Positions 16,497 to 63,197 of a DNA stretch of 64,000 bases are shown in pieces. The stretch is from Umbilicaria muhlenbergii (taxonomy: Eukaryota; Ascomycota; Lecanoromycetes; Umbilicariales; Umbilicariaceae), in contig KK106984.1 in the NCBI GenBank assembly GCA_000611775.1, positions 92,364 through 156,363 of the forward strand, written 5' to 3'. Positions within the stretch are counted from its first letter, which is position 1, and the number at the start of each line of letters is the position of its first letter. Below the pieces are notes generated by a model. It saw only the letters and a list, made by a program, of their open reading frames with translations, did not search any database and had not been told where the DNA came from. A program made the position numbers and the translations under genes.

Positions 16497-17909
16497 GAGA
16501 ACTGACTAAAAAATGGATCTCCCAATTCTGAATTATTGAGGCTAGCTGTTGGGTAGAATGTTATATCTACAGCTGTTATTATAAGAAAGATAGGTAAGGA
16601 AGAGATCGCAGCTAATCAGGGCCAATTTATGCTTAACCATACAAACGCCAACACCCTACTACGTAAATCCGAATGCCCTCGCGTTTCCCATTCGCAGTGT
16701 CGGTTTTAGCAGCCACACTGATGCTAATCTCCGTTAGAAAGATAACTGAGAGATCGCAGCTTGGCGGAACCAAAGAGATGATGGAGTCTGCGAGAAAGGA
16801 CTTCTACTATGGCGCGCAGGATGGCGATAATAGGGCATAGAAGATGTTCATCATAACTGCTAAGATGTGTGGTCTTATTGTGGAGGAAGCCATGCGAAAG
16901 GAGGCTGGTAAAGGGCTCTGTTTAGATTCTCTACCTTGTTAATTGGCAGAGAAAACTACTCAGCCTTGGGTTTAGTGAAGGATTTCTGACTGTGTAACCA
17001 TGTCCTACACCAAACAAACATAACGTGCTTATAAGATCTTACAGTACAACGTTATAAGAACAGGTTCCATGCTGTGTAGAAATCAACCCTCCTGTCTGAG
17101 GATTGGTGATCCATGACGGACGTGGCTCTTTCTTAAATTTTTGCGACTCTTAGTTACGGAATTACTACCATGCTTGAACCAATAATTGTGACGACAAATA
17201 CTCCATGAGAGACCATAGCTTTTTCAGTACCTTAGGCTAACAAAATCATCCTTAAGCGTTCTTGATCCGTTGCATGATCTGTGAAGCTAAGTATAACCGG
17301 TCCAGGATGGCAAAAATGTTCCTCGGCATGTGCAGTGAACATTTCTGGCAAGCCGTCTGGTAGGTGTGAGGACCAAAGAATTGACTGTCTTCCTTGGGAG
17401 TCCTCTCAACTACTTAACCACGAAGACCTATTACGAGGAATGTTCAATTGGAGAGATAGTAGAAGCCATAGATTTTTACGATATGCATTCTAAGGATGTA
17501 CTCATGTCATTCTCGTTATTGTGTAATAAAGAGGGTCCAAGAAATTGGATAACGATACACGAACTAATCCAGGCGAAAGGCTATCGCGGCCAGTGCGAGG
17601 GTTACACCTAAGACACTATAGAACAGTCCCCAGCTGGAGACTGCACCTACTATGTGCACACTGCTGGTTACATCCTCCTCAGCTTTGCGAAGTCGGAAAA
17701 CACGCCTGTCGAACAGCACTGACAGCCCGATATAGGAGCAGTGTCAAGGGCGGAGATTATTCCGCCTCGTCCACCTAAAAATTGGGCCCAGGGTCCAGAT
17801 CCCAGCCACCAGCACCTTGGCTTCATAGCATTCCAACAGCCAATCGATCGATCATGTCTCCACAATACGGTTCCAGTCTGTTCCTCGAGAACTAAAAGCC
17901 TGCAAAAAA
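16497..17909. other. intergenic; no supported gene
   Basis: The word AGAGATCGCAGCT(A/T) is repeated with flanking GAAAGATA at about 16577-16612 and 16735-16764, a minor direct repeat. An 81-codon frame at 17366-17611 has no family match that I recognise. The rest is unremarkable. Confidence 0.45.
17904..17909 (-). terminator. Pol III terminator of tRNA-Ser
   Basis: On the minus strand six Ts follow directly after the discriminator base of the tRNA. This is a standard RNA polymerase III stop and supports a live gene. Confidence 0.85.
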
Positions 17910-18043
17910 CGACGTTGAGAGGATTCGAACCTCTGCTCCCGAAGGAATATGATTTCTAGTCATACGCAATAACCACCTGATCGGTTAATTAGTTGATGTT
18001 CAAGTGATTACTCTGAAAGAATAACTCACTCTGCCACAACGTC
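17910..18043 (-). tRNA. tRNA-Ser(AGA) with a 53-nt intron-like insert in the D-loop
   Basis: After removal of 53 bases the gene folds into a perfect type II cloverleaf of 81 nt. Acceptor stem GACGTTG/CAACGTC; D-stem GCA/TGC; anticodon stem TATGA/TCATA with loop CTAGAAA (anticodon AGA); a serine-type variable arm TTCC..GGAG; T-stem AGAGG/CCTCT with loop TTCGAAT; discriminator G. The insert (about 17974-18026 on the plus strand) lies between tRNA positions 14 and 15, not at the canonical 37/38 site. It begins GTGAGT, carries CTAATTAAC near its end and finishes CAG, so it reads like a spliceosomal intron of normal fungal length. A 3-base GTG at both junctions makes the exact borders ambiguous. 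The B box is intact, the A box is only slightly altered, and a T6 terminator follows. It may be a functional split gene or a copy disabled by insertion. Confidence 0.85.
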
Positions 18044-19218
18044 CAATATCACCAGCTCCGCCTGTTGCTGAAAGAAACGTTCTTATAACAAAATATAGCG
18101 TAAGAATGTCAAGGAAAGCTCAAAGCCTAACACTTCCTAGTAGGTGAATAACCACAACACTCATAGCAAAACATAGCAGCCTCTCCACAAAACTTGAAAC
18201 ATGTATCAGAGCACAGGAGTTTGCTTGCTTCCGCAACTTGCTGCTGGCTTGAGATTCTGGAATCGCCTTGGGTTCGGCCGCCATAAAAGAAGTTGATATA
18301 GTACCACTTAGAGCCCTTAGTAGATTGATAAAGGGATACTATTTGGATTATTCGACCACATGTTGTAAAGCTCAATGCCTTTTGGCATTACCTCCGTATA
18401 AATTAGACGCTTCATGCAAATCACTCTCGGTTTTTTGGTGGTAAAAAGCCCCTAGGTTGAGGACTGCTACTTTGTATCCTTGCTCCTGATCATCGGCGCT
18501 TGTCTCCAAGAGTTGAGACGACGGTCTACATATCGAGTAGTATGTATAATGTATACCACGGGAGCCATGAAGGTTGGAATATAATAGCCGCTACTACTTT
18601 AGAAGCCCTGAGCGCTAAACTTGAGCTGGTCGTTATTACCTTACCATATAGCTAGTGTCATGATGGATGGGCACACATGACTTGGATTTAATCTGGAGTG
18701 TGACAGCTGCGTACGCTGGCTGATGCCTATTATGATGATAACCAACGATAATCTAATTTCTATACGGAACAAAAGAAGTTGCGTTTTCATCCACACGTGG
18801 CCCTAGATACGGGCTGCGATTGGTTAGGGCGACTCTACGATGGAGTGGTGTGCAACCTGTGGGTGTCGCAAGACCTGATCGCGTGTCCCCAAGCTACCCG
18901 TAGATGTACAACAGTACAGGATAATTATCACTATATTTACAATCGCCAGTTCCCCCGGAAATCCTCCGAATGTCGAGCTTCAGCTGGCATCCCATGCCTG
19001 TTCAAATCTCGGGCTAAATTGCCAAAACGGGTAGGGCTGAGCTCTTTTGGCAAGGCTGAAGTCAGGTTGATCACGCAGTTTGTCCGCCCCAGATACTACC
19101 CTCTGCGCCTTTTCTGGCTGGCAGATGTGGGGTCGGTATCGAGGACAGATTGTGTGCGCTTATCTACCTTGTTTTCCTCTGTACAGCTACTGAAGCAGTC
19201 TCCCAGGCATCAGAGAAG
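18044..19218. other. intergenic with one Cys-rich open frame
   Basis: Apart from the small frame at 18127-18375, nothing coding is convincing. The 170-codon frame at 18779-19297 lacks an ATG and merges into the Ppn1 start; it is probably leader sequence. Confidence 0.45.
18127..18375 (-). other. possible 3' exon of a small cysteine-rich protein
   Basis: The minus-strand frame ends with a dense cysteine tail: CSDTCFKFCGEAAMFCYECC followed by GYSPTRKC, eight cysteines in about 30 residues, a style seen in small secreted fungal proteins. There is no in-frame ATG near the start and no signal peptide, so an upstream exon would be needed; an AAAAG acceptor just before the frame is possible. I cannot name a family. 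Chance is a real alternative. Confidence 0.2.
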
Positions 19219-41428: not shown

Positions 41429-42543
41429 GGTGGTGTCGTAGTGACCGGAGTAGTACTATCGTTCAATGAACTATAGGTATGGTTCAATGAACTAGACAAG
41501 GTTCAATGAACTATCATGATCATATAATGATCTTAGGGTTAAGATCAAGTGAGGGAACTAGTAGTCGTAGACTTAAGAGATTGCATTTGATACATGAGTT
41601 GAGCATGAACTTCTAACTATGAATCTACCTGTGATTATATAGACTATAGGAGACTCATGTGCTCAGTGTACTCATCATGCTCATCACAGTGAGCAAGGTG
41701 AGCAACATGATGTAACACTTCATGCTCATCATGCTCAACAGGTGAGCAAGGTGAACAGTATCATGTGTACATTCACACTGCATACTTTGCTAATATTATA
41801 GTGCAGGAGCCTTAACATTAGCTTCTCTCTTAAAATTTCTGTCCTCAAAAATTTAAACATCTTCATGTTTTTTTTCTGAGTGCAAAAGAAACTGAACTCC
41901 TCTCAGTGATGTCATAATCTTCTTCATAAACTCAACCTCACTCCTTTTGTCATGTGATCATGTAGGTGATGTGTTGATGATGTGAAAGATTACTGCATGA
42001 ATGATGATTTTGAAAAGTGTGTTACTTATGTTCAGACTGAAAAGTCCTGTGATCTTTCTTTTAGTAATGCTGACTGAGAAAAGGTGAAAGCTGAATTAAC
42101 TTTCTTGAAGGAAAAGACTTCTGCTGCTGAGGAAATAATTATTGCTGAGGCATCAGCTAAATTAATCTGTTTGTGCAAACAGAAAAGACTGTTGCAACAC
42201 TGTCAGAAAGACTTCATCTCTCATGAGTTCATAAATATTAAAGAGTTGAAGGTGAAGAAGAGCAAGCAAGCAGAGGTTTCAACTTTAATTATTATTTTCA
42301 AACTTTTTAACTTCTTAATGTTGAATGACTTCTGAGGTCTGAGTTCTGTTGTTGAAATTAATGTAACTTCACTGCATAATGAGTAAGATTCTTTTCTGAT
42401 TCTCATGTGTTTCCTGCTGTGTTGTACCCTTTTCACTTAATTAAATAATAAAGCTCATCATTAACTTTCTGTTGATTCAGGATCTTCTTTATCTTAAACT
42501 CAGCATCTTGACTCTTCAAGTTAATCTCTGATGAATTCATCTG
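41429..42543 (-). mobile_element. Ty3/Gypsy fossil, antisense, left part
   Basis: Left remnant of an antisense Gypsy element whose right part continues at 50848. It begins with an LTR-like TGTAACGGGT at 41429. Three copies of GGTTCAATGAACTA (first with C) occur at 41460-41513. The element is heavily decayed and was split by insertion of the element at 42544-50842. It is old and has many breaks. Confidence 0.5.
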
Positions 42544-42824
42544 TGTCAGGGCCACCATATAATAGTATGACAGTACAACACTAGTACGACACTATAGTAC
42601 GACACTATAGTACGACATTATATAGATATGATGACTCAGCGCCTAGCACCTTGGCATCAAGTGAAAACTCTTCACAAGGAGGTTTGGAAACCTGCTTCCT
42701 CAGTGATCAGTTTTGCCACTGAATAAAAGATGTATAACCACTGCATTGACTCTATCGTGACTTTTGCCTATGATACCCCGTTCAAACATCAGTATGATGA
42801 CTGTTGTACACTCAGCTCCTTACA
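42544..42824 (+). repeat. 5' LTR
   Basis: 281 bases, TGTCAG...TTACA, same length as the copy at 50562. It contains ACACTA/TACGAC short repeats in its first third. Confidence 0.92.
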
Positions 42825-45800
42825 TACTGATCGCTCAGTACCTTCAGGCGAACGGTCACGTCAGAAGCATAAGACATGATGGCATCAACACTTCAATCTT
42901 GTCAGGTCAGTGAAACAGTCAACAATCAAGCTGAGGCAGGCCCTTCAATTAGCAGGTTTACATTATCAGTTGTTGATACCCCTACTTCTGACATCATTAA
43001 TGATGATGAACATATCACTGCAGGCAACCTTAATGACATCATTGAAGACCTTGAGGCAGTCACTGCTCATAATCAGGAGGTCATCAAGCGTCAGTGATTA
43101 CAGTTATGACACATATGACAAGAAATTAAGTTTGAGGACAATAAAAAGGAGCTTCAAGAGCTTAATCAACATCTGCAAGAAGATCCTTCAACTATGATTA
43201 CAGCAAACTCAGGGAATAACACAGGTTCATCACATGAATTATGATGTTGAGTTATGACAGACATCACACCTCCCTCTTTTCAATGCCTCATAAAGTCATG
43301 AGAGCCTCACCTCTATGCAGGAGGTGTCAAAGTCATGAGATGAAGACTTCAAAAATACCTGAATGAAATCAATCAGAATCAGAAGCTGATGTCAGAGCAA
43401 TTCTCTACTGAATGAGATTTCATCATCTGAGCAGGCACCTACCTTGAGAAAACAATCATGAGTGACTGATGAAAGCAAAAAGAGCAGCATGATCACACCT
43501 GAGTCATTTATGACAACTTTTTAAAGGTTCTAGAGAAGAACCTATCCCCTGATGAAGACATGAATGAACAAAATATCATCACTTTCAATGCAGCTGAATT
43601 TTGTAATCATGATACAATCACCTTCTGATACAATAAATTATCAGAACTCTACCGCTTCCTTTCAGCTTCACATAAGGAAATCAGTGAGATGCTCATTCAA
43701 GACTGCTGATGATCAAGGCTTCCTCATCACATTCTGACTGAACTATGACGTTGGGATCTGACGCAGGTTGCAAGACAGTCAGTGCAGGAAATCTCAGCAC
43801 ATCTTGACATCATCATTAATCATGAACTGTTCTGAAGCCGCTCAGACACCAAAAAGGATCATCAAAGCAAAACTGACAACAACAACAAAAGTATGACACA
43901 GACGTCATACTATGATAGAAAAGAATCTTCCACTGAACAACAAACTTCTCACCCTCAACAATTCAACTGCGGAAGAGGGAACAATTCATGAGGCTTTTAT
44001 CAAGGAAGTAGCCGTGACCAAAGTCAGAATTTAAATCACATATCAGTTGCGGAGAAAGTGATCATGACAACAACACAGACATTCACAGGACCCTCATGCT
44101 GACAAGAAGACTTTATTTCTAAGAATGAAGTGAATGCATGAAAAGCAGCAGGCCTCTGTATCAAGTGTGAAGTCATCAGTCATTGAACAAATGAATGTAT
44201 GACAGGATGATCAACAGCAGTCATTACTGCAGTTGATGTGAATAAATGATTCACAGTCAACCTTCAGCTCATCTTCTTACTTATCATTGATGATATCTCA
44301 CATCTGATATCAGGGCAGCTAAAGGTGAACTCTCATACAACAAGGGATGATCTGAAGAAAAAATACTCATATATTATTAACAATGACAGTCAAGGCAATA
44401 TTATCACATGATATGTTGTCAATGAACTGTCTTTACAAACTGAACCCTATGAAGCTCAAGTCAATGCATGAGGCAATATGATTGACTTGTCAGAATCCAT
44501 CATATTGACTATTACAGCATATGACATCAACAGTCAATCTTATCACTATAACAGCTGCTTTCTTGTCACATGAGACAACACATCAGCTCCTTTCATCCTC
44601 AGGTTATCATTCCTAGTCAATGCAAACCTGAATCATGAATATGACACGGGGAAATTCCTATGGAAAAAGGTGAGGCATATCACAGCACACTGAGTATTCA
44701 CTGTCAGTGAAAAGAAGGCGCTGAAGAACATTCTACATATGAACAACCTTTTCATTACAGAACACTTCATAGGACCGTCAGACTTAATGATTGATATGAA
44801 AAAATATACTCTACAGATGAACTCATTGTGATATGACAAAGAATATGATAATGTCTACAACAGTCTACCTCCTGAATATCATGACTTCACAGACATATTT
44901 CAGGCAGCTGAGAAGCAGTCTTTATCTGAGAGAGGTTCACATGATCATGCCATTGACTTGAAATCAGAGCAGCAACCTTCATTCAGAAAGTTATACTTGA
45001 TGTCTTCAGCTGAGCTCAATGTACTGAAGGTATATCTAGATGATGTTATGAAGACAAGCATAATCTGTAAATTAATATCATCTGCAGCTTCACCTGTTAT
45101 GTTTGTATCAAAATCAGACAGCAGCCTATGACTAGTCATTGATTATAAACGCTTGAATGATATTATCATTAAAAATCACTACTCACTACCACTTATATCA
45201 GACATGCTGAATCATCTTCAAGGAGCTAAGAAGTTCACTAAGCTGAACTGCAAGAATGCATATAATTGAATATGAATCAAGGGTGAAGATGAGTGAAAAA
45301 CAGCATTCTGAACATGATTCAGCCTGTTCAAATATCTTGTCATGTTTTTCAGTCTCACAAATGCTCCTGCTATGTTTCAAGCATTCATTGATAAGGCTCT
45401 TAATGAGTTCCTTAATATAATATGCATGATTTATCTAGATGATATCCTGATCTTCAGCAAAGATGAATTCAAACATGAGGAGCATGTATGACAAGTATTA
45501 ACTGCATTATAATGTCATGATCTTCACCTTAAGATCAGCAAATGCTCCTTTAATGCAATGAAAGTGAACTTCCTGAGGTTTAAGATCAATACCAAAGGCA
45601 TACATATGAGTTCAGAAAGGATTCACGCTGTTGAAGAATGACTACCCTCAGAGAACATTCATGAATTGCAGGTCTTTCTAGGCTTCATCAACTTTTTCCA
45701 AAGGTTTATAAGAGATTATTCATGAATTGCAGCACCACTGTTAAATCTCCTGAAAACAGGAAAGAATAAAAAGAAGACTGAGGATACATCATCCTCTCCT

Positions 45801-46610
45801 CTTCAGTCTCAATGAACTGCTACTAAAAGAAAGCAGAACAGCCTGACCTCATTGTGAAGATTTAATACAAGGTATTCAGCATGCAACCTGCAAGTCAGAG
45901 GAAAGTTACAACAAGAAAACATCATACCTGCCTCTTTTTCACTCTCAGAAGTTGCATTGAAAGCATTTAATGCTCTGAAGGAGACCTTCATGAGTGCTTC
46001 ATTACTACACTACTTCAATGAAAACAAACTCATGAGGGTTGAAATGAACGCCTCTGAATTCACAATTGACAGAATCTTGATGCAACACTTTAAGATTAAT
46101 GATCAATTGCACTGATTATCAGTTACTTACTACAGCAAGAAGCTGCTAAATACTGAGACCTGATATGATACAGGTGAGCAAGAACTCCTTGTCATCATGA
46201 AAGTCATGCATCATTAATGACACTACTGTCAGGGTGCTAGACATCAAATTGTCATACTGACTGATCATGCAAACCTTGTTTGATTCATGACTACCTCAAA
46301 CCTCACATGAAGGCAGCTCAAGTGAGCTGAAAAGCTCACTGAGTATGACTTTAAGGTCACATATCAAGAGGGCAAGAAGAATCCTGCTGACAGTCTATCA
46401 AGATGACCTGATTATGAACTGCTGAAGGCTGTCAGTACCTCAACTGCCACTGAAATAATGTGACAGTCCTTTCATTTAGGAAGCAAGGACTATAAGTCAG
46501 TGCAGGAGAAATTATACACGCTTGTCATAATGATGCTGCAGTCAAGACACTCAGTATGACAGGAGCTACAACAAGAGAACATCATATCTGTCACAATGAA
46601 TACTACTGAT

Positions 46611-46866
46611 ATGATGAACACTGAAGATGGCAGTCTCATCAGAACATCAGCAGTGCAGAATTTATCTGCTCAAGAAGAAGTAAATCATGATGAATATGTC
46701 AATATGATGAATACTGAAGTCAGCAGCATGACTGAAACATCAGCAGTCTGTGACCTACATGCTCAAGAAGCAAGCCGTGATGAATATATCAGTATGATGA
46801 ATACTGAAGCTGATGATACAACTGAAACATCAGCAGTCTGTGACCTACATGCTCAAGAAGCAAGCT
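46611..46866 (+). repeat. 90-93 bp tandem repeat inside the Gypsy element
   Basis: Units at 46611-46703, 46704-46793 and 46794-about 46866 each begin ATGATGAA.ACTGAAG. All lengths are multiples of three. They sit between the RNase H and integrase regions. Confidence 0.85.
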
Positions 46867-48696
46867 GTGACTGAATAAGAAGATCTAAATATGCAGAGCC
46901 TCAGCAGCACTCAATCAAGGATAACTCAGCAGACACTGCAGTTATGAATGATGACACAAGTCATGTTCTTATTAACCTTCAAATTGAGGATAGCGCTTCT
47001 GCTGACACTGTTGAAGCACTTCAACTCATGTCTACTCACTCACCAATAGGTGAGAAGATAACAGCTTATACAAGGATGTCTATTGAACAACTTAAACATG
47101 TGATTCATACTGAGCAGTTGAAAGACAGTTTGATATGATGAGTATGACAGAGATTAACTACCCCTTTCAAGGATAGAAACAACTTGACAGAGTCTGAGAT
47201 GACAAATATGAATATAGACATGAACTCTGAGATGATCATGACATCAGAAATGCAGCCAAATATGGCATCTATACTGTCAGATATATGAAAATGTTGGCAA
47301 GAAATAGATGATGTCATACACTATGATGATAAGATCTACATTTCACAGAACCCTGCCCTCCACAATGCAGTGATCAGTTGATTTCATGATGATGTTTTTG
47401 CAAGTCATTTCAGGAAGTCAAGAACTGCAGAATTGATGTGATGATCTTATGACTGACTTGACACTGTCAGAGACGTATGATGTTACTGTCATGACTGTGT
47501 TGAATGTCAAAAGGTGAAGCCAGCTCATCACAAATCATATGAGTTATTGAACTCATTATCAGTCCTGGAAGTGCCATGACATAAAATGACAATGAACTTC
47601 ATTACAGACCTGCCACTGAGCAGCACATATGAAAGTACAACATGAGATTCAATCCTCATCATAATTGATAAGTTGACCAAAATGGCTCATTATATTTCAG
47701 TACAGAAGACAATGTCAGTTGCTGACTTCATTAAAGTGTTTATTCAGGACATTATCAAGCATCATGATGTGTCAAAAGTCTTAATCACAGACAGAGATAA
47801 GTTTTTTATGTTGAAGCAATGAATCAGCTTCTGCTTCCACATGCAGTGTCATCATAACATGTCAACAGCTTTTCACCTGCAAACTGATGATCAAACAGAG
47901 AGGCAGAACCAGTCTCTGAAGGTGTATTTACACATATTTGTTGATGAGCAGCAAGAGGACTGAGTCAAGCTTCTACCCTGCACAGAGTTCTCATACAACA
48001 ACTTCATACATGCTGCTACAGAAAAGAGCCCCTTTCAGCTTAACTTAAAGTGAGACCCTCAGATGAGCCTAAGTAGGCCACTTATACAGCACTCACATGA
48101 ACAAATAAGACCTTATGCAGATGCACAGCAGCTTCAAGATCAAATTGCAACAGCTCAAGAGCAGCTATGACAGATCAACAAGATATATGCAAATTATTAT
48201 AATCAGCGCTGAATGAAGATAACATTCAAAGAAGGTGATTTAGTACTGATCAATGAAAAGAATGTGTCAATGAACAAACAGATGAAGAAACTGCATTGAA
48301 AAAAGCTCAGCTCATTCATGATACAACATGTGATAAGTCAATCATCATACAAACTTGACCTCTCAGAGGATCAAAACATTTATAACATATTCAACATCAC
48401 TCTATTGAAGTCATTTCAAGGCACACATCATGTGTTCTCTGCATTAGCAGGAAAAGACCTGCTACTCAACTGAGATGATGAGTGAGAAGTCAAGGCAATT
48501 GTGAATAACTGTATTCATGATGACAGGCTTCAATACCTCATCAAATGAAAGTTGACAGATCAGGTGTGAGATGACATATGAGAGTCAGCACACTTCATCT
48601 GTAATGCAAAGGCAAAAATGTGAAAATTTCATGCTGACAATTCTGATAAACTGAAATTCAGGTGAGCTGTATGACATGACTCTTCAAGATTGATTG

Positions 48697-48786
48697 AGAA
48701 GCTGTCACAAAAGCCATGAGCCTTAAGAAAGCTGTCACAAAAGTCATGAGCCTTAAGAAAGCTGTCACAAAAGTCATGAGTCTTAA
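48697..48786 (+). repeat. 30-bp tandem repeat, three copies
   Basis: Units at 48697-48726, 48727-48756 and 48757-48786, core AGCTGTCACAAAAG, just after the chromodomain region of the Gypsy fossil. The copies are nearly identical. Confidence 0.9.
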
Positions 48787-50561
48787 GAACTGAAAACCTT
48801 GTCAGCCTTGTTAACCTGATCTCTTATGATGAAGCCTGTGCTTTACAACAAGTATGACAGGAGCTATGATGCTATGATGTTATGATGAGATCTTTAATAG
48901 AATTACTGCATGAACTACATTATCACAGACGTGTCACATTGCAGAGAACACTTAAGCACAGAAGCATTTCATTTCAGGTCTGAAGATCAAAATGAACTTG
49001 AGATCAACACCTTGCACTCAACCCCTCATCAGTGCTGCATCAAGTCATTCTCATTTATCTACTTGTCTTCTGCTGTCTCAAACTTTTCTTCACTGTCTGA
49101 TGAAGCCTCTGACCTCATCTCCTCAACGTGGTGCTGCTCACAGAGTTTGATATACTCTTGATGATGATGAGATTGATGAGTGTTGAGGATGCAGAGAGCA
49201 TGGGCAGTGCTCTTCAACAAGACAGCAAGAGCCTGAATGAGCTCCTCAGGACTACTGAATTAGCACATTTCAACTCAAAGGAGTCAAGAAACTCATGTTG
49301 AGGAGCAGCTGCAGAGGGCGTGAAGGATGTCAGTAGTGACTGATAAGAGGTGACAGCATGAGGAATTGATCAGCCATCAAGTGCTATACAACAATTAGCA
49401 TATCAGTAGTACAACAGTGCAACAGTACAGCAGTATGACAAAATGTTGTATGTATGACAGTATGACAAAATGTCATAGATACAACAAGTACATCATATTC
49501 ATACTAAATGAAACAAAATGAAAGGGGATTAGGAAAGGCAGACTTATGATGTGTCATCACCCCTCTGGCCACCATAGACATGCGCTGGGACAACAACATC
49601 AGAGCTCTCAGAGTCAAGAGCAGTGATGATCAGAGGCTCTGCCGTGCATTGCTCATGAGGGTTGCAGAGAGATATGCAACATGTGCAGGCTCCTCTGTCT
49701 GACACAAAGCAGTGATCAACTCTGACTCTTATACAAGAGCCACAATGAGCAGTATCTGACAACGTGTGACTGAGGTTCTCTCAAATCACACGTTCATGAT
49801 GATGAGCCTGCTGCACGCAAGCCGGCAGCAAGGTATCATCATGACATCACACAGAGCAGGAATCACTGCTGAAGACATCACTCAGAGGTAAATGCCTGAC
49901 TCTCTTCAAGCGCTGAACAGTCAGTTTTATCATCCTGTTTCCTCATCTCTTTCTGAAGGTGTTGACCATCACAGTTTCATTCACTGACTCTGACTCAGAG
50001 CCCTCCTCATCACACTGAGCCTGAAGATCAACAGGCTTCCCTGATGAAGGTGGGTCTTCACTGTTGTTCATGACTGTGGGTTCAAGAGTTCAAGTATTGA
50101 TTGCCTATATATCATGTTAGCATCCATATGAAGTATGACAGGAAGTATGACATCACAAATGAGGCATGAGCTGCAAGCTTCATGACACTCCCTTCATGAG
50201 GTGAACACCTCTGCAATGAGGGATGACGTCATGAAGTCACCAGGTCACTCAATGAGCTGTGAAAAAGCTGTGAGAAGTACAATGACATGTCATAAGAGAG
50301 ATGATGAAGAAGAAACACAAGGGAAGGGTGTTTTGAACTTACAGTAAACATTTTGATTTCAATGTTTATGTTAGGAGGAACTTACTGCCAGGCGTGATAT
50401 CATAACAATTAAGCAAGGCATGTGATCAGCCTTACTTTAGTGCAGTTTCACATCCTCACCCTACATGATCAATCACTTATCAGGCCATCATGATGATGTC
50501 TATGATGATGAATTCAGAGTCAATTGACATCAGGGACGGCGCCATGAGAAGGGAAATGCTG

Positions 50562-50842
50562 TGTCAGGGCCACCATATAATAGTATGACAGTACAACACT
50601 AGTACGACATTATAATACAACACTATAGTATGACATTATATAGATATGATGACTCAGTGCCTAGCGCCTTGGCATCAAGTGAAAACTCTTCACAAGGAGG
50701 TTCAGAAACCTGCTTCCTCAGTGATCAGTTTTGCCACTGAATAGAAGATGTATAACCACTGCATTGATCTTATCATGACTTTTGCCTACGACACTCTGTT
50801 TAAACATCAGTATGATGACTGTCATACACTCAGCCTCTTACA
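50562..50842 (+). repeat. 3' LTR
   Basis: 281 bases, about 92% identical to the 5' LTR. It is followed by ATCTG, the copy of the target duplication that precedes the 5' LTR. Confidence 0.92.
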
Positions 50843-50847
50843 ATCTG

Positions 50848-52130
50848 TAATGATGTTTTCAGATCTGCTGATTCAAGTAGAGATACATGAAATACTGAGT
50901 GTATTCACATGAATGATGAAAGTTTAAGTTCATAGTTGACACTTTCTTTTTTATAACTTGAAAAGGTTTTAACTTCTTGTGATTCAACTTATTGCTTGAT
51001 CATGTTGTCTTGATGTTGTATTGTAAAAGGTATACTTTACTCTTCTCTTCAAGAGTAAGTCTCTTATCTCTTTTCTTATTATAATATACTGTTGACTTTT
51101 CTGAGGCAAATTTTATGTTTTATTATAATTTCTTATGAAGGTCCTTCAGTCAGTTCACTCATACTTTCACTTTTTATGTTATGACTTTCAGCCTCCTCAC
51201 TTCATTCATAGGTGAGTTGAATTTATAATTAATGTAAAATGATGATACCTTCATGAATTTTGTTATCACTGTGTTATAAGTTAATTAAGCTATCAGTAAG
51301 AGTTTTACTCAATTGATTTGTTGATAATTAACATAACAGCGCAAGTACTGTTTTAATATTTAATTTAATCATTCAGTTTACCTGTTCATCTGAGGATGAT
51401 ATGCTGTGAACAGCTTATGATGAATTCTTAATTGATTCATTAATGATTTTTAAAACTTGAAAGTGAAGAGTTTATCTCTGTCTGAGATTATTTCTTTCAG
51501 CAGCTCATGATTGATTGTTATGATTCTTAAAAATGTATATGTTAATTCTTCTGCTGATGATGACTTCTTATAAAGTATAAAGTATTCATACTTCATAAGT
51601 TAATCTGTTATGATAAGTATTGCATTATATAATACTTTTATCAGTGGTTCCTTTGACTGTGATAATTTTACTATGAAGTTCAGTGTGATGCTTGATTATG
51701 ATCATGATGATGTTGATGATGACTTCAACAATTCATATGATTTATGTCACTCAGCTTTGTTTTTTCAGCATGTGTCACATTTTTGAATGATCTCTTCAAC
51801 TTTTTTCCTCATGCATGAGAAATAATATGTTTTAATGAGTCATTTCACTGTTTTGTTGATTCCTTGATGATCATTCATCTTGCTGAAATGACTTTCTTCT
51901 ATCAGTGCTTCTCTTAAGCTGATTGAGACATAAATTAAATCTTAAAAAAGTAAGAGGCCTTCTTGCTCTTTAAAGTTTTCATGATCATTAATATTCTGAA
52001 GAACCTGTATTGACAGAAGATGAATCTCTACTCACTTCTTATTTTGTGACATCAGCAGGCATGATGTTCTGATTGAGAGAAAATGATTCAAGAAGATTAA
52101 AATATTGATTAATTATTTTAATCAAAAGCT
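50848..52130 (-). mobile_element. Ty3/Gypsy fossil, antisense, right part (integrase region)
   Basis: On the minus strand, integrase blocks can be recognised (zinc-finger region near 51.7-51.9 kb, core downstream to about 51.3 kb). The fragment is continuous with 41429-42543 if the nested element and one ATCTG are set aside. Many breaks; older than the element inside it. Confidence 0.65.
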
Positions 52131-53249
52131 GATTTGACCTGAGGAGGCTCAATATCAGGCAAGCAAGAACTTGATGATATCAAGATGAAAATTACAGCTA
52201 TCAAAAGTCAAATCAGAACATTAAGCAGATACTGAATGATGTAATAATCTGCATGAGGCAGCAACACTGACTCAGATCTTAAGAAGAGCAGAAAGAGATG
52301 AAATCATAATGATGTTTAACAAAACTGACCCTGAGGATACTGAACATTCAACAAGATTAAATGAGTGAAAGAAAAGATTTATTAAATCACTTAAAAAGTC
52401 AGTCCTGCAGCTACAGGCACAATCAAAGACATGAAGAGCTCAGCAGCCGGTCAACATCAATGAGATGAAAAAACAACTGAATGAAAAGAAAAGTTCAATA
52501 AATCACATGAGTAGTTTAATGAATGAAGGTCAAAGTTCATTGAATGTAAAAAAATTAAAGGATCATAAACCTCCTTTTTATCAAGGAGTGAATATTATAC
52601 TTCTGAAAGCAGAAAACTTCCTATGCAATGTCAGAAGAAAAGAGATGATTATTAATATCATTAATATTCATGAGGTCAATCACTTAATAAAAAATAAAAA
52701 GAACCTCTGTCTGCTGCTGCAGAATAAAGCAGAGCTGAATTAAAGAGTAAAGGAAAAATTACCTCATCAGTATTAAGAGTTTGTGAAGGTTTTCAGCAAG
52801 GCAGCATCAGATCAGCTGTCTTTACACAAGGAAAAAGTGAATCATGATATCATCTTGAAAGATGAGAACAACCTGACCTCAAGCTTCTTGTACAGTATGT
52901 CATTGAAGCAGTTAAAGTTAATCAAGGCTTATCTTGAAGATCATTTAAAAAAGAGTTTCATAATCCTTAATGATGCTTCTTACATGTCATCAGTTCTCTT
53001 TGCAAAGAAACCTGAAGAGGGGTGATGTTTTTGCATTAACTACTGAAAGCTCAATGCAATCATTAAGAAGGATAAGTACCTCTTGCCTTTAATTGAAGAG
53101 ACTCTAGCATGACTGGTTAAAGCAAAGGTTTTTATCAAGCTGAATGTTAAGCAGGTGTTTTACTGAATACAGATGAAGAAGTTTGTTGAGGATTTAATCA
53201 CCTTTTGAATGAGGTATGAACTTTACAAATACAAGGTCTTACCTTTCAG
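52131..53249 (+). mobile_element. Ty3/Gypsy fragment, plus strand, cut off at the inverted repeat
   Basis: The end of a protease/linker region and the first part of a reverse transcriptase are recognisable (about 52.78-53.25 kb). Similarity stops exactly where the 2.35-kb inverted repeat begins at 53250. Fossil with many breaks. It differs from the 42.5-50.8 kb element. Confidence 0.65.
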
Positions 53250-55597
53250 CCTTCATCAGCAATTTAGCAAGTTAGCTTTGAGTTAGTTTTTAACACTTTG
53301 AGTGCTCTGAGCTTCTGATCTCATGTCTCAGCTAACAGCCGCTCTTAGCACCCTTTGAGCACTTTGAGCTCAACCTTAAATCTTGAGCAGAACATCAAAA
53401 TTTTGTGATAATAAAATAATTATTAAAACAATTGTTTAAACAAGTACACACGCAGTGTTATAATAACAGTAAAATTTATAATAAGTAAACTTTTGCTAAA
53501 ATTCACTTTTCTGCAATAAAAAATCATGATTTGTTGAGTCTGAAAGCACTGTATAAGTGTTGAGTTCTGAATATTTAAAGAACTTCAAGATTTTCGTCAC
53601 TTAAAAATTTACACACTTTAATTACTTTTGCACCTCAACAGATATGAAGAAACTTTCAATGCATAAGTTATAAAGAATAGTATTTTTTATTAATGTTAAA
53701 TTAAAAGTTTCTTCATAACTGCTGTTGTTGTTAAGTTATATTTAATTCAAGTTTTCAATAGTGAAAAGTCTTTCAAAAAAAGTCACATACTTTGAATAAC
53801 TATTGCGCTTTTATACTTATGATATAACTTTCAGTTTATAAGTTGTAGAGAAGAAGCTATTAAACAGTTTTATAACTTAAAGTTTTTTTATAACTGTTGT
53901 TGTTAAAAAGTTACATTGATTTCAAGCTTTCAGTGATGAAAATCACAACATTAATAAATAGACTTTTAATGACTTTTTGAATAACTCATCAACAACAACA
54001 CATAAAAAGAAACTTTGTATAGGAAAACTCTTAAACAGCTTATTCTCTACAACTTATAAATTGAAAGTTATATCATAAGTATAAAAGCGCAATAGTTATT
54101 CAATATGCTAATATACTTATAATTAGTTAAAAGTTTTTTAATTCATAACTATTGCAAATTAAAACTTATGAAGAAATCTTTAGTTTGTAAAGTGTACAGA
54201 ATAAAGAGATTTAAAACTTTTCAATAAAAAGTTTTTTATTATTCATGAAGGTATAATAGTTATTTAAAGTGTAAGATTTGTATGAGCTCATTTACTGCTC
54301 AGAGAGTGCTCTGAGCGCATAAAGTCCTATTAACTAAAACCTTATTTTTGAGCAAGCTGTCAAGTTGCGGATGGCCTGCTGAGAATAAAAATCACAAGCC
54401 TGATGAGGGCAAGAAGAAAAGTAAATAAAATAATAAATATAAAAACAAATCACTGAAGGCTTCTGTAATAAAGCATCTGCAATTTGGCAGCCTGCTTAAA
54501 AATAAGGTTTTAGTTAATAGTACTTTATGCGCTCAGAGCACTCTCTGAGCAGTAAATGAGCTTATACAAATCTTACACTTTAAATAACTATTATACCTTT
54601 ATGAATAATAAGAAACTTTTTATTGAAAAGTTTTAAATCTCTTTATTTTGTACACTTTATAGACTAAAGATTTCTTTATAAGTTTTAATTTGCAATAGTT
54701 ATGAATTAAAAAACTTTTAGCTAATTATAAATATATTAGCATATTGAATAACTATTGCGCTTTTATACTTATGATATAACTTTTAGTTTATAAGTTGTAG
54801 AGAAGAAGCTATTAAACAGTTCTATGACTTAAAGTTTTTTTATAACTGTTGTTGTTAAAAAGTTACATTGATTTTAAACTTTCAGTGATGAAAATCACAA
54901 CATTAATAAACCGACTTTTAATGACTTTTTGAATAACTCAACAACAACAACACATAAAAAGAAAGTTTGTATAAGAAAACTCTTAAACAGCTTATTCTCT
55001 ACAACTTATAACCTGAAAGTTATATTATAAGTATAAAAGCGCAATAGTTATTCAAAGTATGTGACTTTTTTTGAAAGATTTTTCACTATTGCAAACTTGA
55101 ATTAAATATAACTTAACAACAACAGCAGTTATGAAGAAAGTTTTAATTTAAGATTAATAGAGAATACTGTTTTTTATAATTTATGCATTGAAAGTTTCTT
55201 CATATCTGTTGAGGTGCAAAAGTTATTAAAGTGTGTAAATTTTTAAGTGATGAAAATCTTGAAGTTCTTTAAATATTCAGAACTCAACACTTATACAGTG
55301 CTTTCAGACTCAACAAATCATGATTTTTTATTGCAGAAAAGTGAATTTTAGCAAAAGTTTACTTATTATAAGTTTTACTGTTATTATAACACTGTGTGTG
55401 TACTTGTTTAAACAATTGTTTTAATAATTATTTTTTTATCACAAAATTTTGATGTTCTGCTCAAGATTTAAGGTTGAGCTCAAAGCGCTCAAAGGATACT
55501 AAGAGTGGCTGTTAGCTGAGACATGAGATCAGAAGCTCAGAGCGCTCAAAGTGCTAAAAACTAACTCAGAGTTAACTTGCTAAATTGCTGATGAAGG
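53250..55597. repeat. large inverted repeat: two 1110-bp arms around a 128-bp loop
   Basis: The left arm (53250-54359) starts CCTTCATCAGCAATTTAGC; the right arm (54488-55597) is its reverse complement to the base, ending GCTAAATTGCTGATGAAGG. In the outer ~130 bases the arms match at about 94%, and the differences I compared are transitions. The inner ends match through CTATTAACTAAAACCTTATT. The loop is 54360-54487. Each arm also contains its own smaller inverted repeat (53792-53858 with 54037-54102 on the left). No coding frame is seen. A foldback-type transposon or a head-to-head duplication are both possible. No clear target duplication at the ends. Confidence 0.9.
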
Positions 55598-57230
55598 GGG
55601 GGTGACGCTTTTTAAGAGCTTTGCAGTTGAGCTCAACAGTCAATGCAGCTTCTGTTATGTGTATATAAATTTATTAAATCTGTTAGTTTGAGACCTGTAG
55701 CGTTCACTTTGAATTTTTAGTGAAGGGGCACAGAAAAGAGATACAAATTAAAAAAATTAAGCAAACTCAAAATGAAAGGAACGCTTTCAAAAAATTCAAA
55801 TCATGTTCAAACAGGCTGCAAAGTGACTTTGAAGGCAGCACTTAGATGTGTTTAGAAACCCTGTAAATATTAAAAACATCAAGGAGGTGAAGGGTGATTT
55901 GCTTACCTCTGAAGAGAAAGTTTATGACTTTTGTTGAATCATCATTACTCACTGCATTCTCACTCATTCAGGCTCAAATTTTGGCGTTAAACTCAGTCAA
56001 TAAAGTGCTTCAAAAGCGCCAGAGGGATTTAGTCTAAATAGTCTGAGAAAAATGTCAAGTTTTTCATTTTGAGGCATTCAGAGGTAAAGTGCCTCTTTGC
56101 TTCAGAGCTTTCAAAAATTCAACTTGACTTCAATCCTTGTGCAAAGTGACTCTGAAGTGAGGTTTATGTCACCTCTAGAAGAGCTATTAATCATAGAGTG
56201 ACTGAGGAGAGAAGAGACTCATTGTCATTAAGAACCTCAAGATCAAGAATGAAATTAAACACTTCAAAAGAAAAGTAGCAAAGCAATTTAAAAGCACACA
56301 CAAAAACAGAAGTAAGGGGTAAATCTGAAACATAAAACATAAAATAAAACTTAAAAGACATATCTTCATCTGCATAACTCACTTATACTCACCTGACAGC
56401 TGAGAACAGTAATCAATAAGGTCAACCTGAACCTGTTCATTGAGCTGAATCAACTTGATTGACATCAAAGGTGATTGAGTCAGAGACTTAGCTTGCAAAT
56501 TGCAATGACAGTAATTTGCAAGCACTCAGTTAACTTCTTTCTTGATAATGCTTCAGTAGTTGTCCTTAATGATGAGTCAGGTCTTGTCATGTTCAGCATG
56601 AAACAAATGATGATGCATTTCTGTAATCCTTTTATAAGCCTCCTCTCTCATAATGACAATGATAGTGTTGAAACTCTCATCAGGTGTAGGGTTCTCAACA
56701 GGCTTTCAGCAAAATTAACTCTTGCTGTTCAAGCAGAACTTCTGAAGAGCTTTGATACAGTTGTTCTGATCAGCTTGACCTTTGCATGATCACTTGAGGT
56801 CTTATAAAAAGGTGGTGTACTCCCTTCTCTGTTCAGGGGTAAGTCATTGTTGATTGATATGCTCTGAAAGTTGAATTCAGTCCAGAAAGGCTTCCTCCAT
56901 GAGGTCAACTTCAACTCAAGTCTCAGACGCGCCGGGTGCGTGAACAGCGTTTACAGGCATAATGAATGCAGGAAAATGAGAAGAAGTATGAATAATATTG
57001 AATTTAATGAGTTCTGAGGAGTTTTATAGAGACAAAGTCAAATTGACTGAGAAAGGAGGACTTCAATGATGCAAGAAAGAAGAACTTCAATGATGAGAGA
57101 AAGAAAACAGAAGAAGCAGAACAAGTGAGAGGTCTTATAAACCTTGAAAAGAAGGGAATTATTCCCCATGGCGCAGTGCACGGGGTTGGTATACAGGTTA
57201 GTACTCCGGTATACAATCTAGAAAATACAC
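55598..57230. other. AT-rich decayed repeat sequence
   Basis: No gene is supported. A ~47-base direct repeat (TCAAAAA-TTCAA...GCAAAGTGACT.TGAA) is at about 55787-55833 and 56109-56155. Short frames at 56187-56789 have no family match. Composition returns to normal near 57150-57230. Confidence 0.5.
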
Positions 57231-63074: not shown

Positions 63075-63193
63075 ACATACGACCACAGACTCAAGAAAAC
63101 TGGGCATCCCGTCCGCTCTGCCATACATAAGCTTGAGATCGGCAGACTAGTAGTTGGGTGGGTGACCACCAGCGAATCCCTGCTGTTGTATGT
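63075..63193 (+). rRNA. 5S ribosomal RNA
   Basis: The sequence starts ACATACGACCACAGACTCAA, contains ATCCCGTCCGCTCTGCCATA and AGTAGTTGGGTGGGTGACCA, and ends CCTGCTGTTGTATGT, a full-length fungal 5S rRNA whose 5' and 3' ends pair. It is a single dispersed gene, as in Neurospora, transcribed by RNA polymerase III. A TATA element lies about 25-30 bases upstream, and T runs follow the 3' end. Confidence 0.95.
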
Positions 63194-63197
63194 TTTT
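63193..63197 (+). terminator. Pol III terminator of the 5S gene
   Basis: A T5 run directly at the 3' end of the 5S gene, with a second T run a few bases later. Confidence 0.8.

Follow-up and report, generated by a model that had tools for sequence, protein, structure and literature searches.

Spliceosomal-type intron signals in a nuclear tRNA-Ser(AGA) gene and in other tRNA genes of a lichen-forming fungus

In 2000, Bhattacharya et al. reportedly described introns of the spliceosomal kind from nuclear rDNA in lichen-forming ascomycetes. In fission yeast and others, an mRNA-type intron also occurs in the gene for U6 snRNA, which is made by Pol III. The lichen rDNA introns are established as spliceosomal, and one of 57 bp from Cladonia grayi was correctly removed from yeast Pol I transcripts, according to the portions of PMC8527467 available to us. 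Ectopic introns in eukaryotic tRNA genes have been described from a red alga and from nucleomorphs, with splicing of the bulge-helix-bulge (BHB) type in Cyanidioschyzon merolae, in the sections available of PMC4090602 and PMC3978253. No spliceosomal intron in a tRNA gene was found in the open-access literature searched, and the term 'spliceosom' had 0 occurrences in PMC4090602 and PMC8450103.

Our study compared with these systems a tRNA-Ser(AGA) gene from the nuclear genome of a lichen-forming fungus, located in a 64,000-nt stretch of DNA (the whole stretch analysed, hereafter the window). The gene is interrupted in its D-loop by a 53-nt insert which, judged from its sequence, is very probably a spliceosomal (U2-type) intron in a functional gene. 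Like the lichen rDNA introns, it would be a short spliceosomal intron that a lichen fungus carries outside its mRNA, although the hosts here are tRNA genes, whose products are small, tightly folded RNAs and whose internal promoter is sometimes interrupted. It would share with the U6 intron the placement of a spliceosomal intron in a Pol III transcript, but U6 is a part of the spliceosome, and the one U6 match found in this genome covered the whole model and had no intron (47 of 2774 candidates scored). The 5S rRNA gene in the window (63075-63194, plus strand) is full length at 74.5 bits and also carries no intron.

The interrupted gene occupies 17910..18043 on the minus strand and is read from 18043 down to 17910; all further features of the gene are on the same strand. 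Exon 1 (18030..18043) contains the 5' strand of the acceptor stem, positions 8-9 and the 5' side of the D-arm to A14. The GT..AG insert of spliceosomal type (17977..18029) follows at 14/15, not at 37/38, the canonical site of tRNA introns, and exon 2 (17910..17976) supplies the remaining D-arm, the anticodon arm with the anticodon AGA (17955..17957), the long variable arm, the T-arm, the 3' strand of the acceptor stem and the discriminator G. The insert opens with the predicted 5' splice site GTGAGT (18024..18029) and closes with the predicted 3' splice site CAG (17977..17979), and between them it carries CTAATTAAC. In the branch-site motif CTAAT (17988..17992) the candidate branch A is 17989, which lies 12 nt from the 3' end of the insert; an alternative candidate, TTAAC, offers an A at 17985, at a distance of 8 nt from that end. 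A T6 run of the Pol III terminator type (17904..17909) lies directly downstream of exon 2, and TATA-like motifs are found upstream at -44 (TATAA, 18083..18087) and at -54 (TATAT).

Once the insert is excised, the remaining 81 nt form a type II cloverleaf, identified as tRNA-Ser(AGA) by ARAGORN, with cloverleaf, anticodon and T-arm all intact, and this cloverleaf is the energy minimum of the spliced RNA (-22.4 kcal/mol). The first-pass annotation of a tRNA-Ser(AGA) gene split by 53 nt at 14/15 was confirmed, and the GTGAGT start, CTAATTAAC, the CAG end and the T6 terminator were all present as it had described them. Unspliced, the gene was overlooked by ARAGORN at default settings, was wrongly called tRNA-Ala with the intron option, and scored 22 bits in Rfam, below the 29-bit cut-off. 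The boundary of the insert is ambiguous by 3 nt, as GTG is repeated, and one of the four equivalent cuts is GT..AG. Among 4529 deletions tried on the gene, 245 led ARAGORN to call tRNA-Ser(AGA), and GT..AG ends occurred in one of these 245. Candidate mRNA introns in the window, defined by motif and open reading frame, measured 45-88 nt (median 65, n=23; reversed control, 4), and one of these 23 is in fact the tRNA insert, ending at a later AG. The first-pass statement that the insert equals the protein-gene introns in length was therefore too strong, since 53 nt falls within this motif-predicted range rather than matching it.

A hairpin formed by AGTGAGTTA and TAATCACT (18003..18030), proposed at the 5' junction in the first pass, was recovered by folding. 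It hides the 5' splice site when the insert is folded alone (-8.0 kcal/mol) and is present in the centroid of the whole precursor, but the precursor energy minimum is a different fold, in which the 3' junction is covered by a 13-bp helix that pairs the insert with exon 2. Of 200 shuffles, 199 folded less well than the precursor (z -2.7). As modelled, this helix and the hairpin at the 5' splice site would both count against easy splicing.

The same type of insert recurs in tRNA genes across the genome, which turns an odd single gene into a genome-wide feature. At least 14 tRNA genes, no two of which share an anticodon, have between them 16 complete GT-AG inserts, 50-61 nt long, at sites that span the acceptor stem to the T-stem and with lengths inside the 45-88 nt range of the motif-predicted mRNA candidates. 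Besides Ser(AGA) at 14/15, the sites, numbered by hand from spliced sequences, are Arg(ACG) 19/20, Phe(GAA) 24/25, Thr(TGT) 25/26, Ala(CGC) 23/24, Pro(TGG) 6/7 and 24/25, Leu(CAG) 30/31, Ala(AGC) 49/50, Gly(CCC) 28/29, Thr(AGT) 10/11, Leu(AAG) 20a/21, Asp(GTC) 26/27, Tyr(GTA) 8/9 and 20a/21, and Leu(CAA) 64/65. A second tRNA-Phe gene has its insert at the identical site. Another Arg(ACG) gene, readable in its 3' part (L144 1-130, G000:C3:1706628-1706757), has a GT..AG insert between 53 and 54 that splits the B box, and ahead of A14 this part starts with the apparent end of a further insert. An intron at 37/38 is present as well in 11 of the 14 genes; these canonical eukaryotic introns thus share genes with the inserts, but differ from them in position, length and ends. 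ARAGORN reported a full-length tRNA for 13/13 spliced genes and the hand-assigned anticodon for 8/13; the five exceptions, in which its 37/38 intron lay elsewhere, were Thr(TGT), Pro, Leu(CAG), Ala(AGC) and Thr(AGT). At least 18 tRNA genes lack such inserts (L003-L018, L045 and L139, the last two typed by hand).

Loci were found by T-arm patterns and by the Rfam tRNA model; the inventory is partial and the gene counts are lower bounds. All 29 places with GGTTCRAATCC were fetched (control 20). GGTTCRABTCC gave 122 places (control 88), of which 100 were listed and 70 fetched, with a few more inside other loci, and GGTTCRANCCC gave 97 (control 92), of which 12 were covered in addition to those already in other loci; most places matching these patterns are chance occurrences. 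In the Rfam search, 63 of 1258 candidates were scored, with at least 19 matches among the matches listed. Ordinary 37/38 introns of up to ~43 nt were observed in an unusually wide set of tRNAs without the inserts (L006-L018, L045 and L139), comprising Arg, Ala, Glu, Asn, Ser, Gly, Leu, Pro and Val.

The first-pass annotation had left open whether its single gene was spliced by an unexpected route or had been inactivated by the insert. An intact copy elsewhere was sought in 34,788,950 bases (34.8 Mb) on 7 contigs. The sole genome match of the 174-nt locus was the locus itself. The AGA anticodon combined with a T-arm pattern at tRNA spacing occurred at 7 places (control 10), and only the window gene had five-pair anticodon and T stems; the remaining 6 had at most 3 pairs in the anticodon stem when read without an intron. 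Longer spacing gave 3 places (control 5), the only readable one of which, in L106, had 1 anticodon-stem pair, again read without an intron, and a 4-pair T-stem. A Ser/Leu A-box pattern with at most one mismatch was found at 29 places (control 15). The 6 perfect ones comprised two in L142, the other four falling in Leu(TAG), Leu(CAA), Ser(TGA) and Leu(CAG) with one apiece, and among the 23 with one mismatch a single place, inside L142, was read. At the sensitivity used, no other Ser(AGA) gene and hence no redundant copy was found, and the 53 bases themselves, which would have recurred had they been a mobile repeat, occur once in the genome. A scan of a prokaryotic genome collection gave 0 hits.

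BLAST with 13 spliced intron-bearing tRNAs likewise found no uninterrupted copy of any of them, Tyr, Asp and Phe included. A dead Ser(AGA) copy in the window is unlikely on these sequence grounds, given that no second Ser(AGA) gene was found and that the insert lies nowhere else; together with the BLAST result, the missing second gene favours the spliced reading. For the inserts as a whole, inactivation with intact copies elsewhere, or an artefact of assembly, is extremely unlikely. According to the available part of PMC4090602, a eukaryotic tRNA gene with a short insertion in its D- or T-arm is usually a pseudogene, one among many synonymous genes, and the assembly is probably a draft. Against these points stand not only the missing intact copies but also stems and anticodon loops that are intact save for single mismatches, and Phe exons that stay conserved next to a drifting intron: between the two Phe genes, 8 of 50 intron bases have changed versus 1 of 73 exon bases (Fisher p = 0.003). 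The change at the 5' splice site of this pair stays within consensus (GTGAGT/GTAAGT). Between the Arg(ACG) copies, the anticodon stem is kept by a compensated double change at 28-42. Nor do the inserts of different genes share any sequence, similarity being found only between the two Phe copies, which indicates that they are old or independent and do not stem from a recent repeat burst. A mobile repeat or introner was rejected on the same lack of similarity and on the single occurrence of the window insert. Group I and group II introns have size limits above 50-61 nt and were ruled out, the inserts being too short.

The strength of the splice signals was quantified. Because most genes had been chosen with GT..AG already noticed by eye, all deletions of 40-74 nt were scored by cloverleaf alone, blind to motif; canonical introns were removed by hand in 10 genes, and the other insert was removed in genes with two. 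GT..AG belonged to the top-scoring deletions for 12 of 15 inserts, compared to 3 for the next end pair, and came within 2 points of the best for 15/15, compared to 7. In Arg(ACG), Gly(CCC) and Ala(CGC), 1, 1 and 31 other cuts, respectively, outscored GT..AG by 1-2 points. For the 16th insert, in Leu(CAA), the single best deletion was GTAGGC..AACAG. When the second Phe and Arg copies are counted, 5' ends match GTRAGY in 13 of 18 inserts, one insert starting with GTAGGC, and 3' ends are CAG or TAG in 17 of 18. The position of the branch motif serves as an independent check: YTRAY with its branch A 10-12 nt from the 3' end is present in 14/18 inserts versus 105 of 4357 AGs in the window, and is missing at that distance in four, two of which are the Phe pair.

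A close parallel in layout is provided by C. merolae and the cryptophyte nucleomorphs, which likewise have introns at scattered positions, several per gene, interrupted A and B boxes and upstream TATA-like sequences. In the portions available, the C. merolae introns have BHB junctions cut by tRNA endonuclease, whereas the inserts described here have GT..AG ends and a branch motif; many nucleomorph tRNA introns are without a defined BHB (PMC4090602, PMC3978253). It could be argued from this parallel that the present inserts are, as in archaea and C. merolae, ectopic introns of the BHB type, cut by tRNA endonuclease, with an incidental GT..AG look. C. merolae is known to have multiple ectopic tRNA introns together with TATA-like sequences upstream (PMC3978253, PMC4090602, as available), the sites 25/26, 30/31 and 53/54 match archaeal sites listed in PMC4090602, many 37/38 introns occur in this fungus, and the energy minimum of the window precursor has a long helix at the 3' junction. 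A BHB score of at least 8/10 was reached by 0/15 inserts, but this is a weak test, since 0/10 canonical introns reached it either; mean scores were 4.5 for inserts, 5.8 for canonical introns and 3.7 for random cuts. GT..AG ends with a branch motif at fixed distance are not predicted by BHB cutting, and we consider this explanation very unlikely.

Transcription signals were compared between the genes with and without inserts. A run of T4 or longer was present within 40 nt downstream of 12/13 intron-bearing genes and 16/17 others, versus 14% of random window positions. A TATA-like motif was present within 60 nt upstream of 10/13 and 11/17, versus 15% of random positions, and was absent from 3/13 and 6/17. 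The insert splits the A box (positions 8-19) in the window Ser(AGA) gene, Thr(AGT) and Tyr, while the B box of Ser(AGA) is intact. The genome also has a match to the TFIIIC Tau95 domain, unlike C. merolae, for which factors binding the A and B boxes had not been identified according to the available part of PMC3978253. Given the T6 terminator, the upstream TATA-like boxes and the intact B box, Pol III would be the most likely polymerase for the Ser(AGA) gene. Spliceosomes normally work on Pol II transcripts, and the 53/54 insert of the second Arg(ACG) copy interrupts the B box itself. Both points would suit spliceosomal removal from a Pol II transcript, either stand-alone or longer, out of which the tRNA is processed. 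The enrichment of T-runs and TATA-like motifs near the tRNA genes relative to random positions and the Tau95 match speak against Pol II, however, and we regard such a route as very unlikely.

Our preferred reading is that of U2-type introns in functional tRNA genes, and it draws on the anatomy of the window gene, the recurrence of the inserts, the single copy at the sensitivity used and the splice-signal statistics. The Ser(AGA) gene would be transcribed whole, the spliceosome would take out the 53-nt intron, and the joined RNA would fold as a tRNA before the usual end processing. The same route may be taken by the transcripts of at least 13 further tRNA genes in this genome, and in 11 of the 14 the second, ordinary intron at 37/38 would presumably be cut by tRNA endonuclease after spliceosomal removal. 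L071, a tRNA-like locus whose stems are perfect, could be matched to no GT..AG cut and counts against this reading, as do the -44 location of the TATA-like box in Ser(AGA) and the intron-bearing genes that have no such box.

In a broader sense, the spliceosome is probably an obligatory machine of tRNA maturation in this fungus, for a large share of tRNAs that includes those from what are seemingly its only Ser(AGA), Tyr and Asp genes, and it would often act in series with tRNA endonuclease on one precursor. mRNA-type introns in many tRNA genes suggest that the machinery that edits mRNA may be needed for tRNAs too; with many tRNAs needing the spliceosome, all protein synthesis would directly depend on spliceosome capacity. 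If true, tRNA introns would gain a spliceosomal class beside those already known, the regular substrates of the spliceosome would include RNAs of tRNA size, and it would become testable in which order two splicing systems act on the same precursor. The idea of an intron-loaded translation apparatus in lichen fungi, described for rDNA in the available portions of PMC8527467, would then extend to the tRNA set. The noncanonical-intron search of tRNAscan-SE 2.0 is described for the archaeal model (PMC8450103, in the part available), and together with the window gene, missed or miscalled by ARAGORN, this suggests that similar genes may lie unseen in other genomes.

Several other loci were observed during the searches. 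L071 (G000:C1, around 5609920) has perfect acceptor, D and T stems, a TATA-like box and a T10 run; its anticodon stem is extended to 9 bp, T33 is absent, and no single GT..AG cut fits it. L142 1-451 (G000:C1:6091350-6091800) contains a repeated tRNA-Leu-like A-arm, TGGCCGAGTGGTTAAGGCGCCAGGTTTGG, and was rejected as a Ser/Leu gene, having no T-arm. L029, L020 and L046 are tRNA-like in appearance. A dispersed tRNA-like element resembling a SINE was seen in L036, L055, L058, L060, L067, L073, L078, L094 and L101; its 3' part is conserved, mostly with the T-arm GGTTCAATTCC followed by GGCGCTACTTTTGTGG, and two neighbouring copies lie on C2 near 6093525. Within the window, 42001-56000 is AT-rich, with 28-41% GC in 2-kb bins compared to 42-64% elsewhere, and looks like a decayed repeat region. 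The window also contains an endopolyphosphatase gene, the best named protein match of which is from Lasallia pustulata (82%).
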